From Actinomycetes bacterium (lineage in GTDB: Bacteria > Actinomycetota > Acidimicrobiia > Acidimicrobiales > RAAP-2), in the NCBI GenBank assembly GCA_021806045.1, contig JAJZDI010000009.1, positions 62,001 to 126,000 of the forward strand: a stretch of 64,000 bases of DNA, in the 5' to 3' direction. Shown here piece after piece: positions 47,470 to 53,688 of this stretch. Numbering within the stretch: the stretch's first letter is position 1; every line of letters begins with the position of its first letter. Under the pieces are notes generated by a model. The model was given only the letters and a program-made list of their open reading frames with translations. It had not been told where the DNA came from and made no database searches. Position numbers and translations under genes: made by a program.

Positions 47470-49020
47470 ATGAAGGTGCCGCTGACCATCGGGGATTTCC
47501 TGGAGCGGGCTGCCGACGTCTACGGCGATCGCCCGGCCGTCCTCGACGAGCCGGACACGCCGGGCAGCTTCGGGCGCATCACCTACGGCGAGCTCCACCA
47601 CCGGGCCCGGGCCATGGCCGTGGCCTTCGACGACCTCGGTGTCGGCGTCGGCGAGCGGGTGGCCATCGTCAGCCCCAACGCGTCGCGCTTCCTGGCGTCG
47701 TACTTCGGGGTGAGCGGCTTCGGGCGGATCCTGGTGCCGATCAACTACCGCCTGACGGCCGACGAGATCGCCTTCATCGTCGAGCACTCGGGCACCTCCG
47801 TGCTCCTCTACGACCCCGACATGGACGAGCAGGTGTCGGGGATCGAGGTGCCGCACCGGTTCCGGCTGGACGGCGTGGAGGACGCCGCCCTGTTCGACCC
47901 GGAGGTGGGCGCCAGCCGGAGCCCGGCCGGCTGGGAGGCGGACGAGGACGCCACCTGCACCATCAACTACACGTCGGGGACGACCGCCCGCCCGAAGGGT
48001 GTCCAGCTGACCCACCGGAACTGCTGGCTGAACGCGGTGTCGTTCGGATGGCACACCGGGCTGTCCGACCGCGACACGCTGCTGCACACCCTCCCGATGT
48101 TCCACGCCAATGGATGGGGCATGCCCTACGCGGCAACCGCCATCGGTGCCCGCCACGTGGTCCAGCGCAAGATCGACGGCGAGGAGATCCTGTCCCGTAT
48201 CGAGCGGGAGGGGGTCACGATCATGTGCGCCGCCCCTGCGGTGGTGGCCACCGCTCTCGAGGCCGGCGTGGCCCGCCGCGAGCGGGGCGAGGAGGTCCCA
48301 GGACGCGACCAGGTCCGCATCGTGGTGGCCGGTGCGCCGCCGCCCTCGCGGGTGATCGAGCGGGTGGAGGAGGAGCTCGGCTGGGAGTTCATCCAGCTCT
48401 ACGGGCTGACCGAGACGTCGCCGTTGCTCACCTTCAACCGTGCGCCGGAGGAGTGGGACGACCTGCCGGTCTCCGAGCGGGCCACCCGGCTCAGCCGGGC
48501 CGGCGTGCCGGCCATCGGGGTGCGCGTCCGGATCAGCGAGGTGGGCGAGGTCCTGGCCCGTTCCAACCACGTGCTCGACGGCTACTGGCACCAGCCCGAC
48601 GCCACCGCCGAGGCGCTGGAGGGAGGCTGGTTCCACACAGGCGACGGCGGCTACATGGAAGGTCCCTACGTGGTCATCTCCGACCGGAAGAAGGACGTCA
48701 TCATCACCGGAGGGGAGAACGTGTCCTCCATCGAGGTGGAGGACGTGCTCTACAAGCACCCGGCGGTGGCCGAGGTGGCGGTGATCGGCGTCCCCGACGA
48801 GAAGTGGGGCGAGGCGGTCATGGCTCTGGTGGTGACGCGCGACGGGACGTCCGTCACCGAAGAAGAGCTCATCGAGCACTGCCGGAGCCTCATGGCCCAC
48901 TTCAAGGCGCCCCGGCGGGTCGAGTTCCGCGACAGCCTGGTGCGCACGGCGACCGGCAAGCTCCAGAAGTACAAGCTCCGTCAGGAGTTCTGGTCCGGCA
49001 GGGAGCGCCAGGTCAACTGA
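47470..49020 (+). CDS. acyl-CoA synthetase (AMP-forming)
   Basis: 516 residues, ATP + carboxylic acid + CoA to acyl-CoA. Signature P-loop YTSGTTARPKGVQLTH, motif LYGLTETSPLL, then DGGWFHTGDGGYMEGPYVVISDRKKD-type sequence. The catalytic hinge IITGGENVSS and the C-terminal Lys in TATGKLQKYKLR complete the family features. A full-length ANL protein of the medium- or long-chain FadD type. ATG 47470 follows a GGGGGTCGACCC leader. The 262 bp upstream hold no gene, only three copies of CAGTCCG near 47230-47250. The acyl chain preference is not readable. Confidence 0.92.
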   Translation: MKVPLTIGDFLERAADVYGDRPAVLDEPDTPGSFGRITYGELHHRARAMAVAFDDLGVGVGERVAIVSPNASRFLASYFGVSGFGRILVPINYRLTADEIAFIVEHSGTSVLLYDPDMDEQVSGIEVPHRFRLDGVEDAALFDPEVGASRSPAGWEADEDATCTINYTSGTTARPKGVQLTHRNCWLNAVSFGWHTGLSDRDTLLHTLPMFHANGWGMPYAATAIGARHVVQRKIDGEEILSRIEREGVTIMCAAPAVVATALEAGVARRERGEEVPGRDQVRIVVAGAPPPSRVIERVEEELGWEFIQLYGLTETSPLLTFNRAPEEWDDLPVSERATRLSRAGVPAIGVRVRISEVGEVLARSNHVLDGYWHQPDATAEALEGGWFHTGDGGYMEGPYVVISDRKKDVIITGGENVSSIEVEDVLYKHPAVAEVAVIGVPDEKWGEAVMALVVTRDGTSVTEEELIEHCRSLMAHFKAPRRVEFRDSLVRTATGKLQKYKLRQEFWSGRERQVN

Positions 49021-49087: not shown

Positions 49088-51859
49088 TCAGGGCGCGCTG
49101 CGTGCCGGCTCGATGTCGACGTTCAGGCAGCGGTCGGCCGGTACCGGTTGCCACTCGGTGGGCGCGTAGGCCAGGTGCCCATAGCCGCCGGCCAGCCCCA
49201 GCCACTTGACCAGTCCCGGCTCCACCTCATTGGGGCCGGCCCCTCCCTCGAACATGAACCCCTCGAACCCGTTGTAGACGGTGAGGGCACCGGGTCGCTG
49301 GGCCGGGCTGGTGCGGGCGTGGACGACGAACTCGCCCACGTCGTTCCAGACCCGCACCGGTGCGTCGTCGTCGATGCCCAGCTCGGCGGCGTCGTCCTCG
49401 TTCACGAGGATGAAGGGCTTGCCCCGGTGTGTCTGGAGGAGCACCGGGTTGGTGGTGTTCATCGAGTGGATGCTCCACCGGTTGTGCCCGCCCGACAGGC
49501 GGAAGCGGTGGTCGCCCCCCATGGGAGGCGGATCCTTGTGGGCCGGCAGGTCTTCGCCGGCCTGGACGAACCACGGGTGGTCGAGGAGGAACTGGGCCCG
49601 CCTGGTCAGCGTCGGGTACGGCAGCCCCCGCTCCACGTGGTCCCGCAGGGGGGCGTGGGTCTCGCCCTCGGGGAAGGGTGACGCCTGGCCCTGGGCCATG
49701 CCCATGAAGCCCCAGTCCCGGTAGCGCACCCAGCCGTCACGGCGGAGGGTGTCGAGGGTGGTGTCGGGGGGCAGGTTGCCGGTGTGGACCGAGTCGCGCA
49801 CCATCTCGTCGGCCAGGTCCTCGTCGGTGACCATGGTCCCCCCCAGCGTGTAGCGGTCCCACAGGTCGGCGTAGCGGTGCTCCATGCCCATGGCGTCGGT
49901 GAAGGACTCGAGGCCCCGTGCCGCGGCACGGTCGGCGATGACCGTGCACAGCTCGCCCAGCATGTCCCACTCGGTGCGTGACTCGCCGGCCGGGGGGACG
50001 GCCCGGTCGCTGTAGGAGAGCATCATCGTCCACGGGGTGGGCATGCCGAACCCGGGCTTCTCGTAGTGATGGGCGGCGGGCAGCACCAGGTCGGCGTAGC
50101 GGGCCGTCTGGGACATGCGGACGTCGCACACCACGACCTTCGACAGCTGGGGCCACAGGTGCTCGAGGAGGACGTTCATCCCGCCCCGGGTGCGCCGGAG
50201 CGTGTTCCCGGCGATCTCGAGCAGGACCCGGGGCGGCTTGTCGGGCCCGGGAGCCGCCGCCGGACCCCACCACCCGGCGGCGATGGCCTCGTCCAGCAGC
50301 TCCCCGAACGGCTTGGGCATGGCCGGGTCGTTGACAGTGGGGTCGTCCCACCGCTCGCGGAAGCCTGCGTGCCAGTACCAGAAGAAGGCGGGGGGGACCA
50401 TGCCGAGCGACTGGCCGACCGACCGCCACAGGGCGGCGCTGGCCAGCGTGCCGGTGAGGGTGGGGTCGGCCGACCGCATCGCCTCGGTCATGGCCTCGAG
50501 GCCCCCCATGAACGCCTCCGTCCCGGCGATCCCCGGCTCGTCCTTGCCCATGGCCAGGGTCTGGCCGTCGAACATGCCGACGGCCCAGGCACCGCCCCCG
50601 GCGCCCTTGCGTCCCCAGTTCCCCGTCAGCCCGAACAGGAGGAGGATCGACCGGGCGATGAGGTCGCCGTGGTAGTACTTCGCCATCCCCGCGTTGGTCA
50701 CCAGGCGGGTCCGCCCGCCGGCCACCCAGCGCGCCACCGTCCGGATGGTGTCGGGGTGGGCGCCGCAGGTGTCGGCGACCGCCTCGGGCGTGTAGCGCTG
50801 GTCGAGGACCCGCCGGACCCGTGCCAGCAGCGGCTCGACCTCGATCGACGCACCGTCGTGGGTGGTCACGGTGAAGGTTCCCTCGAGGGCGGGCTCGAAG
50901 TCGAGGTCGAGGCTGGTCGGGTCGGCGATGACCGGCCCGCGGCCGGGGTGGGCGTGGTAGAAGCGCTCGGCGCTGCCGCCGGTCACGTCCGCCTCGCGCA
51001 GGAACCGGCCGTCGTCGCAGCGCACGAGGAGCGACAGGTCGGTCTGGGCCCGCACGAAGTCGAGGTCGGCCAGCCCCTCGTCCAGCACCACCTGGCACAT
51101 GGCCAGCGCCAGCGCGGCGTCGGTCCCGTGGGCCACCGGGACGTGGAGGTCGGCGTGGACGTGGCTGGGGCTCACGTCGGGGGCCAGCAGGACGACGCGG
51201 GCGCCCCGGTAGCGGGCCTCGGTGATGTAGTGGAACGAGGGGATCCCCGTGTAGGCCGGGTTGGCGTGCCAGATGAGGATGCAGTCCGAGTGGAAGGTGT
51301 CGTCCACCGACGGCGTGACGTAGAACTTGCCGAACACCTGGTGGAGACCGGCCCAGAAGTCGTTGATGGACCCGTTGACGTCGAGGTTGGTGCCTCCGAT
51401 CAGGCGGACGAAGCGGGCAGCGGGGACGAGGGCGGCCAGCTCCGGCGACCCCTCGTGGACGACCGACTCCGGGCCCACCTCCTCGATGGCGTCGAGGATG
51501 GCGTCGGCCACCTCGCCCAACGCCTCGTCCCAGGTGATCTCCTCCCACGACCCCGATCCCCGCTCGCCCACCCGCCGGAGGGGGTGGAGCAGCCGGTCGG
51601 GGGCGAGCATCTGCTGGCTCCAGGCCAGGCCCTTCTGGCACACCATGGGGTTGGCGTCGGGGACGCCGTCCTCCACCGGCGGCAGGTCGCCCGGCGACTC
51701 CTCCCGGACCACGACACCGTCGCGCACGTAGGCCACCAGCGGGCACCCGGTGGGGAGGCAGTCGACGCAGTGCGACACCCGGGCGACGTGGTCCCACGGT
51801 CCGGCGATGCGCGCCCGGTAGTGGTCCTCCGTCGCCATCTGGGTGGTGGTCGGATCCAT
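49088..51859 (-). CDS. molybdopterin oxidoreductase, NarG/type II DMSO reductase-like
   Basis: 923 residues from ATG 51859. An N-terminal [4Fe-4S] site is built from His30, Cys34, Cys39 and Cys74 (HCVDCLPTGC...MVCQKG). Asp167 in INDFWAG aligns with the molybdenum-ligand Asp of NarG/EbdA-type enzymes. The LIGG, ADLHVP and EARYRGARVV segments also match that clade. The MGD-binding C-terminal domain runs from GGHNRWSIHSMNTT to the end. No twin-arginine signal is present, so it is probably cytoplasmic. No beta, gamma or chaperone subunit genes lie nearby. Candidate activities are hydroxylation or reduction of steroid-, aromatic- or oxyanion-type substrates, all inference. Confidence 0.85.
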   Translation of the reverse strand: MDPTTTQMATEDHYRARIAGPWDHVARVSHCVDCLPTGCPLVAYVRDGVVVREESPGDLPPVEDGVPDANPMVCQKGLAWSQQMLAPDRLLHPLRRVGERGSGSWEEITWDEALGEVADAILDAIEEVGPESVVHEGSPELAALVPAARFVRLIGGTNLDVNGSINDFWAGLHQVFGKFYVTPSVDDTFHSDCILIWHANPAYTGIPSFHYITEARYRGARVVLLAPDVSPSHVHADLHVPVAHGTDAALALAMCQVVLDEGLADLDFVRAQTDLSLLVRCDDGRFLREADVTGGSAERFYHAHPGRGPVIADPTSLDLDFEPALEGTFTVTTHDGASIEVEPLLARVRRVLDQRYTPEAVADTCGAHPDTIRTVARWVAGGRTRLVTNAGMAKYYHGDLIARSILLLFGLTGNWGRKGAGGGAWAVGMFDGQTLAMGKDEPGIAGTEAFMGGLEAMTEAMRSADPTLTGTLASAALWRSVGQSLGMVPPAFFWYWHAGFRERWDDPTVNDPAMPKPFGELLDEAIAAGWWGPAAAPGPDKPPRVLLEIAGNTLRRTRGGMNVLLEHLWPQLSKVVVCDVRMSQTARYADLVLPAAHHYEKPGFGMPTPWTMMLSYSDRAVPPAGESRTEWDMLGELCTVIADRAAARGLESFTDAMGMEHRYADLWDRYTLGGTMVTDEDLADEMVRDSVHTGNLPPDTTLDTLRRDGWVRYRDWGFMGMAQGQASPFPEGETHAPLRDHVERGLPYPTLTRRAQFLLDHPWFVQAGEDLPAHKDPPPMGGDHRFRLSGGHNRWSIHSMNTTNPVLLQTHRGKPFILVNEDDAAELGIDDDAPVRVWNDVGEFVVHARTSPAQRPGALTVYNGFEGFMFEGGAGPNEVEPGLVKWLGLAGGYGHLAYAPTEWQPVPADRCLNVDIEPARSAP

Positions 51860-52083
51860 GGCGTGCCCTCCCTGCCCTGCGCCGGTGCCCAACGGTAGAC
51901 CTGGCGACAGCATGTCCGCCCACCCGGACCGGGACCACCTCCCTGGCATCGGGCGGGGTGGAGGTGGGCGGTGCGCCGGACACGCCCGGGCGGGGAGTGG
52001 TTAGCCTGGGGGACGACGGGTCGCACTCGCCGCCACCAGGGCCCGAGCCCGATCCGAGCGAACCCGCATCGAGGGAGGGTCCC

Positions 52084-53688
52084 ATGGCAACGGACAGCGA
52101 CACCAACACCGCCACCTCGTCACTCAGGAGCCTGCCCGACCAGCGCTTCGACCGGGCCCGCCTCGACGCCCTGGCCGAGCGGGCCGTCGCCGCCGGGGAG
52201 CGGGAGCCACTCGTCGTCGAGGCTCCCTTCACCGGCCAGCCCATCGGATCGGTGCCCCGTGGCACGGCCGAGGACGTGGCTCTGGCCTTCGAGGGCGCCC
52301 GGGCGGCACAGCGTGCCTGGGCGGAGACGCCCATCTCGGACCGGGCCGCCGTTTTCATGCGCCTGCACGACCTGGTGCTCGACCGCCAGGAGGAGATCCT
52401 CGACCTCATCCAGCTGGAGAGCGGCAAGGCCCGCCGCCACGCGTTCGAGGAGGTCCTCGACGTTGCCCTGTGCAGCCGCTACTACGCGCACACCGCGGCA
52501 CACGCGCTCCGGCCCACCCGCCGCCAGGGCGCCATCCCCGGCCTGACCGAGACGTGGGAGCACCACCACCCCAAGGGCGTGGTGGGGATCATCTCGCCGT
52601 GGAACTACCCGCTGACCCTCGGCATCAGCGACGCCATCCCCGCCCTCCTGGCCGGCAACGCGGTGGTGACCAAGCCCGACCAGCGCACGCCGTACTCGGC
52701 GCTGTGGGCGGCCGACCTGCTGGCCGAGGCGGGCCTGCCCGAGGGCGTGCTCCAGGTGGTGACCGGTGCGGGGTCGGAGCTGGGGACGCCCATCGTCGAG
52801 GCGTCGGACTTCGTGATGTTCACCGGCTCCACCGCCGTGGGCCGCACCGTCGCCGTCCAGGCGGCGAAGCGCCTCATCGACTACTCGATGGAGCTGGGGG
52901 GCAAGAACGCCCTCCTGGTGCTGGCGGACGCCGATCTGAAGAAGGCGGTCCCCGGTGCCATCCGGGCGTCGTTCTCGAACACGGGCCAGCTGTGCATCTC
53001 CATGGAGCGCATCTACGTCGCCGCCCCCATCTGGGACCGGTTCGTCGACCGGTTCGTCGCCGAGACCAAGGCGCTCGTCCTGTCGGCCGGGTTCGACTAC
53101 GAGGGCGACATCGGTTCGCTCGCCTCGGCCAACCAGCTGGCGACGGTGGAGAAGCACGTCGACGACGCCGTCGGGCACGGCGCCACCGTCCTGGCCGGCG
53201 GCAAGGCCCGGCCGGACATCGGCCCCTACTTCTACGAGCCGACCGTGCTGGCCGACGTGGCCGACGGGATGATCCTGTGCCGCAGCGAGACGTTCGGTCC
53301 CGTCGTCTCCCTCTACCGGGTGGAGACGGAGGAGGAGGCGATCGAGCGGGCCAACGACAGCGAGTACGGGCTGAACTTCAGCGTGTGGACGTCGGACACC
53401 GGGCGCGGCCAGCGGGTGGCCGCCCGCCTGCAGGCGGGCACGGTGAACGTGAACGAGGGCTACGCCGCCGCGTGGGCGTCGATGGACGCGCCCATGGGCG
53501 GGTTCAAGGAGTCGGGCGTCGGTCGCCGCCACGGCGAGCACGGGATCCTCAAGTACACCGAGCCCCAGACCATCTCGGTGCAGCGGGGCATGCCGATCGC
53601 GCCGCCCCCGTACCTGTCGGCGGCCCGCTACGCCCAGATGATGAACCGGGCCCTCCGGCTCCTGCGGCGGGTCCCTGGGATCAAATGA
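52084..53688 (+). CDS. succinate-semialdehyde dehydrogenase-like aldehyde dehydrogenase
   Basis: 534 residues from ATG 52084, preceded by GAGGGAGGG. The catalytic pair is Glu270 (MELGGKNALL) and Cys304 (NTGQLCISMERI). PWNYPL at 172-177 and FTGSTAVGR also match. The GQLCISMERIYV variant and the length of about 530 with an N-terminal extension resemble actinobacterial GabD2-type succinate-semialdehyde dehydrogenases, which feed 4-aminobutyrate carbon into the TCA cycle. Divergent from the molybdoenzyme with a 224-bp gap. Another aldehyde substrate is possible. Confidence 0.9.
   Translation: MATDSDTNTATSSLRSLPDQRFDRARLDALAERAVAAGEREPLVVEAPFTGQPIGSVPRGTAEDVALAFEGARAAQRAWAETPISDRAAVFMRLHDLVLDRQEEILDLIQLESGKARRHAFEEVLDVALCSRYYAHTAAHALRPTRRQGAIPGLTETWEHHHPKGVVGIISPWNYPLTLGISDAIPALLAGNAVVTKPDQRTPYSALWAADLLAEAGLPEGVLQVVTGAGSELGTPIVEASDFVMFTGSTAVGRTVAVQAAKRLIDYSMELGGKNALLVLADADLKKAVPGAIRASFSNTGQLCISMERIYVAAPIWDRFVDRFVAETKALVLSAGFDYEGDIGSLASANQLATVEKHVDDAVGHGATVLAGGKARPDIGPYFYEPTVLADVADGMILCRSETFGPVVSLYRVETEEEAIERANDSEYGLNFSVWTSDTGRGQRVAARLQAGTVNVNEGYAAAWASMDAPMGGFKESGVGRRHGEHGILKYTEPQTISVQRGMPIAPPPYLSAARYAQMMNRALRLLRRVPGIK

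Follow-up and report, generated by a model that had tools for sequence, protein, structure and literature searches.

A few periplasmic enzymes of anaerobes are known to hydroxylate C–H bonds without oxygen. The 64,000-nucleotide stretch of actinobacterial DNA analyzed here (the window) encodes, on its minus strand at 49088–51859, a molybdopterin catalytic subunit (alpha3, P0001; 923 aa, start ATG at 51859) that profiles, a match to 2ivf_A and phylogenetic trees mark as resembling ethylbenzene dehydrogenase and steroid C25 dehydrogenase (EBDH/S25DH-like). This gene stands by itself, as a reading made from the sequence only had already remarked: profile searches for beta, gamma and delta subunits, and for the proteins X and M1 discussed below, produced no match in the window or in two further parts of the same contig (C4:22001–62000 and 113481–133480). 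The locus raises the question of what such a subunit works with and where its electrons go. In our most likely reading it belongs to a cytoplasmic, alpha-sharing hydroxylase system with an eroded heme exit. More specifically, we assign a probability of about 0.6 to alpha3 being one of four interchangeable alphas of a cytoplasmic EBDH/S25DH-like molybdenum hydroxylase that uses one shared beta and a heme-independent exit.

Family placement and integrity of alpha3

The best solved match of alpha3 was by far EbdA (2ivf_A), which aligned over the full length with an E-value of 1e-200. Against profiles, alpha3 scored 773.9 bits for the type II alpha (TIGR03479) and 694.5 bits for the EbdA equivalog (NF042978), both below the respective cut-offs of 984.75 and 2000, while the scores for the narG equivalog, Fdh-alpha and NasC were 192.3, 164.4 and 97.8 bits (cut-offs 1084.15, 666.25, and 1100, respectively). 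In a FastTree phylogeny of 138 rows, alpha3 and EbdA fell into a 98-row group (SH-like support 100) apart from NarG, ClrA and the Haloferax type II enzyme, and the closest relatives of alpha3 formed a clade of 13 rows. This tree excludes ORFs of <780 aa or <400 bits as well as same-place copies (L103, L002, L003, L129, L023, L014, L106, L108, and L085), the dropping of L085 having also removed one further alpha. An IQ-TREE quick tree of 53 rows placed alpha3 in a 38-row group that includes EbdA (SH-aLRT 100); within it, a 34-row group (SH-aLRT 100), which we refer to as the Tat-less clade, contains all four alphas of the genome. EbdA is a long branch, so its exact place is unsure.

Membership of alpha3 among the NarG proteins was rejected on the narG score and the trees, and membership among the formate dehydrogenases or assimilatory nitrate reductases on the scores and the trees. 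At the level of sequence, its placement on the EBDH/S25DH side of the type II family is firm. The sequence-only reading was therefore right to propose the type II branch, and the placement that it had named as fatal to this proposal, inside the formate dehydrogenase/assimilatory nitrate reductase clade, was not what we found (164 and 98 bits for Fdh-alpha and NasC versus 774 bits for the type II alpha); its NarG-like label, on the other hand, has to be replaced by EBDH/S25DH-like.

Alignment to EbdA, ClrA and NarG identified the four ligands of the FS0 cluster as H30, C34, and C39 (in HCVDCLPTGC, 51743–51772, minus strand) and C74 (51638–51640, minus strand). The molybdenum ligand is D167 (51359–51361, minus strand), the equivalent of EbdA D223, so that both the His-Cys site and the Asp ligand expected from first inspection are present. 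K394 (50678–50680, minus strand) aligns with EbdA K450, which we take to be an active-site residue of EbdA. Both D167 and K394 are invariant in all four alphas of the genome. These features, together with the full-length match, liken alpha3 to EbdABC of Aromatoleum (2ivf), whereas EbdA H192 and W87 show no conservation in alpha3. A ribosome-binding-like GGGAGG was read directly 5' of the start codon (51866–51872, minus strand). An ortholog in the MAG FK5.bin72 is 89% identical to alpha3, and the dN/dS between the two is 0.14; alpha3 is intact and under purifying selection. The observation is not a matter of chance, given the full-length match to 2ivf_A, the 89% identical ortholog and the low dN/dS.

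Candidate partner subunits elsewhere in the genome

The genome, assembled as 43 contigs, encodes four EBDH-like alphas, of which alpha1 (at the end of contig C2 and on C13), alpha2 (C43), and alpha4 (C4, 5 kb before the window) are 52, 49, and 47% identical to alpha3, respectively. It has a single EBDH-type beta (TIGR03478, 386 bits) and a single gamma, both on C13, which puts the alpha–gamma–beta locus on a contig other than that of alpha3. A gene for a PF02613 chaperone (delta) lies directly before alpha2. The beta gene is interrupted by the end of C13; its intact ortholog in the relative L034 aligns to 2ivf_B (E 5.7e-123) with 335 residues alignable, including the cysteine motifs, which identifies the C13 gene as a beta of the four-Fe-S-cluster kind. 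In both L034 and L059 the order alpha1–gamma–beta–delta–alpha2 is found on a single contig, and by analogy this favors, without proving, adjacency of C13 and C43 in the genome of alpha3. Further beta matches, all of them weak, and a second PF02613 match were detected on C41 and C33. We take the molybdopterin and beta-like genes of C41 for NarG/NarH-like, judging from their lengths and weak scores. A molybdate/tungstate-type ABC transporter with a WtpA-like binding protein (L025:12966–15877, C2) is situated upstream of alpha1, with MoeA further up.

The description of alpha3 as an orphan consequently holds for its surroundings and not for the genome, in which genes for beta, gamma, and delta are all present. 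The sequence-only reading had called the electron path unknown. As far as FS4 the shared beta is the obvious candidate, and the question narrows to the exit after FS4, because the gamma is without the heme-ligand lysine.

Heme b ligands of the gamma subunits

The heme b of the EBDH gamma is described as being ligated by a Met and a Lys (PMC8840923). In the gamma of the genome studied here, the Met is kept and the Lys is replaced by Gly. Of the gammas with a neighboring alpha on the 53-row tree, 16 have that alpha inside the Tat-less clade and 11 outside it (the latter including EbdC and the Haloferax gamma). The Lys has been lost from 15 of the 16 and from none of the 11, and Ile or Leu takes the place of the Met in 8 of the former and none of the latter, although these counts are not independent of kinship. 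The lost Lys corresponds to Gly or Ala in 12 cases, His in two, and Arg in one; only L044 retains it. The Gly/Ala gammas all pair with alphas of a 25-row subgroup that contains the four alphas of the genome. The complete gamma alignment contained EbdC and 36 other sequences, including one duplicate from the same contig: of the 36, 19 keep the Lys, 14 have Gly or Ala (duplicate included), two have His, and one has Arg. A Fisher test on the gammas used 17 inside and 13 outside, as it added gammas whose alpha is absent from the 53-row tree. Loss of the heme is read here from two ligand positions.

This branch, with its missing Tat signals and eroded gamma heme ligands, looks new as judged from the sequences. 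A literature search covering titles and the starts of abstracts, with subscription papers thinly represented, turned up no description that we recognized as a cytoplasmic or heme-less EBDH branch. The eroded heme site poses a clear and testable question, namely by which route the electrons exit.

A candidate electron route

We propose that the Mo-bis-PGD center, with D167 as a ligand, would take a hydride from a C–H bond of a hydrophobic substrate and add a water-derived hydroxyl group, and that electrons would pass from FS0 in the alpha to FS1–FS4 of the single shared C13 beta, on which alpha3 would dock. Heme b would probably then be bypassed, because the Lys axial ligand is missing from the gamma beside the shared beta, and the electrons would most likely leave at the membrane or via a flavoprotein. 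We infer that in cytoplasmic hydroxylases of this plug-in type the membrane, in place of cytochrome c, receives the electrons. NarGHI, which has a cytoplasm-facing topology with membrane electron exchange, may provide a functional analogy. It resembles the alpha3 system in superfamily, FS0 and Asp ligand, but the narG score of alpha3 is far from its cut-off (192 versus 1084 bits) and no NarI-like subunit was found in the core cluster of the alpha3 system.

The candidates for an exit are encoded after alpha2, in the order X (~470 aa), M1, M2, and a fourth gene that gives a weak AMP-binding match. This X–M1–M2 arrangement occurs in the genome itself and in relatives from both Actinomycetota and Chloroflexota. 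X reached 21.3 bits at best against Pfam nitroreductase profiles, below the threshold of 23.5 bits. Its structural model is poor (pLDDT 45), with a best Foldseek E-value of 7e-3, yet its best alignments in VIA-align were to FMN nitroreductases (Z 12.2 over 143 residues); we regard the structural match as a weak to moderate hint that X may be nitroreductase-like. M1 and M2 are related four-helix membrane proteins; a His close to the N-terminus is conserved in M1, and a His-Pro in M2. M1 matched CopD with 38.2 bits, over the cut-off of 32.1, and its model, a good one (pLDDT 84), matched only generic four-helix bundles in the structure comparison. Across 296 sampled genomes of the class, X was present in all nine genomes with a strong alpha match and in two of the 287 without one. 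Neighborhood and co-occurrence lead us to propose X, M1, and M2 as the electron acceptors; since they follow alpha2 and not alpha3, they could serve alpha2 alone. The wider idea of a cytoplasmic, heme-free plug-in platform, in which one beta(-gamma) accepts many alphas and an outlet of X and a CopD-like pair replaces heme b and cytochrome c, is one that we advance tentatively and consider rather doubtful. The core cluster ends with a conserved gene starting MPKTIATTPSWYWP, which has only a short AMP-binding match (L017:5767–7119 and ten other loci).

Gene context and direction of the reaction

An acyl-CoA synthetase gene (AMP-binding; 47470–49020, plus strand; PF00501, 243 bits) is convergent with alpha3, with 67 bases between the two, and also adjoins the alpha3 ortholog in the FK5.bin72 relative (L026). 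We treat this as an association, not a proven partnership. Divergent from alpha3, and regarded as a neighbor only, is a succinic-semialdehyde-type aldehyde dehydrogenase gene (52084–53688, plus strand; NF006916, 806.5 bits, cut-off 521), and thiolase-like and SDR genes are found further along. In five alpha3 relatives (L028, L029/L137, L030, L136, and L138) the contig also encodes a member of the acetoacetate-decarboxylase family, and members of the clade repeatedly have acyl-CoA dehydrogenase and Zn alcohol dehydrogenase genes in their vicinity. This context fits the catabolism of a hydrophobic compound via an alcohol, an aldehyde, and a CoA ester, which we offer as a candidate substrate class and no closer assignment.

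The same context bears on the direction of the reaction. A cytoplasmic complex might instead run reductively (as a reductase or dehydroxylase); low-potential donors in the cytoplasm and a gamma without heme would both be in keeping with that direction. The loss of the Met/Lys heme site is consistent with this, as the high potential of that site in EBDH is described as fitting cytochrome c as the acceptor (PMC8840923). Furthermore, a nitroreductase-like X could be a flavin donor, and members of the family are described in a review as operating in both directions (PMC10100899). However, the neighbors in relatives (acyl-CoA synthetase, acyl-CoA dehydrogenase, Zn alcohol dehydrogenase, and thiolase) look catabolic and the closest characterized enzyme is an oxidizing hydroxylase, and we consider the reductive direction unlikely.

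Probable sharing of beta among alphas

In the hydroxylase reading alpha3 would use a beta encoded at a distance. In all 13 genomes compared (that of alpha3 and 12 relatives) alphas outnumber betas, with 101 alphas (matches to at least 600 of the 913 model positions) versus 22 betas (matches of at least 300 bits). The expansion is extreme in the 6.5 Mb genome to which L033 belongs (G299), which has 27 type II catalytic subunits, many of them matching the model at full length from position 1, and four betas as electron modules. In the class sample, 13 of the 296 genomes had an alpha3 match, which was strong in nine, and betas of at least 300 bits occurred in exactly these nine (Fisher p = 2e-17, relatedness ignored). 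Alpha sharing of beta-gamma is in itself not new: in Sterolibacterium, alpha1, alpha2, and alpha3 are each described as active with one beta3gamma3 (PMC6016249). S25DH1-4 and S26DH1 of Sterolibacterium denitrificans are accounted for there as type II alpha paralogs sharing fewer beta-gamma subunits and a dedicated chaperone (PMC6016249), and the genome of alpha3 likewise has four alphas, one beta, one gamma, and a chaperone gene beside alpha2.

It could be argued that alpha3 has no need of a beta and acts as a single-subunit enzyme, such as a hydratase or a transhydroxylase-like protein with no net electron transfer. In favor of this, no beta is near alpha3 in the window, and a same-strand beta within 4.5 kb is found for 16, but lacking for 11, of the 27 Tat-less-clade alphas whose flanks extend 4.5 kb or more in each direction. 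However, alpha3 retains all four FS0 ligands, a strong beta is present in all nine class genomes with a strong alpha, and one member of the alpha3 clade (L033) is beta-coupled, with the beta directly upstream and overlapping the alpha frame, and without a gamma. In addition, conservation is symmetric between beta-coupled and orphan alphas: 0.956 of the conserved columns of the former are kept in the latter and 0.959 in the reverse direction, although both lie below the 0.983 of random splits, so the comparison carries little weight. We consequently hold a single-subunit enzyme to be quite improbable and the sharing of the single beta by alpha3 to be likely. In L139 the alpha3 ortholog is ~0.8 kb from a gamma–beta–delta–alpha cluster on the opposite strand, and three beta-coupled alphas with full flanks (L048, L086, and L033) have no gamma nearby.

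Absence of an export signal

The sequence-only reading had also noted that no export signal is visible, and we agree: no Tat-like stretch was found in alpha3 or in the in-frame extension 5' of ATG 51859. The absence is not due to a missing pathway, because the genome has a TatC gene. With a script that reads up to 110 residues upstream of the start, we found a credible Tat signal in none of the 86 readable N-termini of the Tat-less clade (90 members in the 138-row tree), compared with 24 of 41 readable N-termini outside it. The one flag raised within the clade, in L121, was an Arg/His run without a signal core and was judged spurious, and L072|12751 was judged a miss of the script. A Sec signal of gamma was tried as a marker of location and dropped, as gammas mostly lack one even beside Tat-bearing alphas. 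A second Tat-less group outside the clade (L040, L078, L065, and L083) keeps both heme ligands, so Tat loss and heme-ligand loss are not strictly coupled. We consider a cytoplasmic location of alpha3 likely.

This sets the alpha3 system apart from its known relatives. EbdA, S25dA, and CmdA are all listed as periplasmic in a review table (PMC10100899), EBDH is described as periplasmic with Met/Lys-ligated heme b in gamma (PMC8840923), and S25DH and S26DH, compared here by description, have Tat signals as well as heme b (PMC7411048, PMC6016249), whereas the alpha3 system has no Tat signal and has lost the Lys. That alpha3 is nevertheless a standard exported, heme-containing S25DH/EBDH-type enzyme, its Tat signal missing merely through a wrong start and its heme held by other residues, would agree with the Met kept in its gamma and with the beta-gamma sharing of Sterolibacterium (PMC6016249), but is very improbable given the lack of any Tat-like stretch upstream in frame, the result for all 86 readable clade members, the TatC gene of the genome, and the Gly/Ala in place of Lys across the gammas of the cluster.

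Other genes near the alphas

The genome of alpha3 encodes a heme-copper (terminal) oxidase, and some kilobases downstream of alpha2 is a cytochrome P450 gene (L017:9437–10726, C43), which may put hydroxylases with and without a need for oxygen side by side. If a cytoplasmic version of oxygen-independent hydroxylation does exist in actinobacteria that have a terminal oxidase gene and a P450, annotations of orphan molybdopterin oxidoreductases may hide much oxidation of hydrocarbons and terpenoids.

Approximately 2 kb from alpha4 is a PF01636 phosphotransferase gene (L014:17646–19175, C4) that recalls the 25-hydroxysteroid kinase, for which similarity to putative actinobacterial phosphotransferases is described (PMC8449060); the two are set side by side by description, and we make no steroid claim from this gene. 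CrtO/CrtI-like FAD oxidoreductases occur beside alpha3 orthologs in two relatives (L027:1–6798, with three copies, and L031:935–2698). Contig C4 also has a very long ORF (L014:7981–12033) with repeated units that appear Ig-like by eye, possibly encoding a surface protein.
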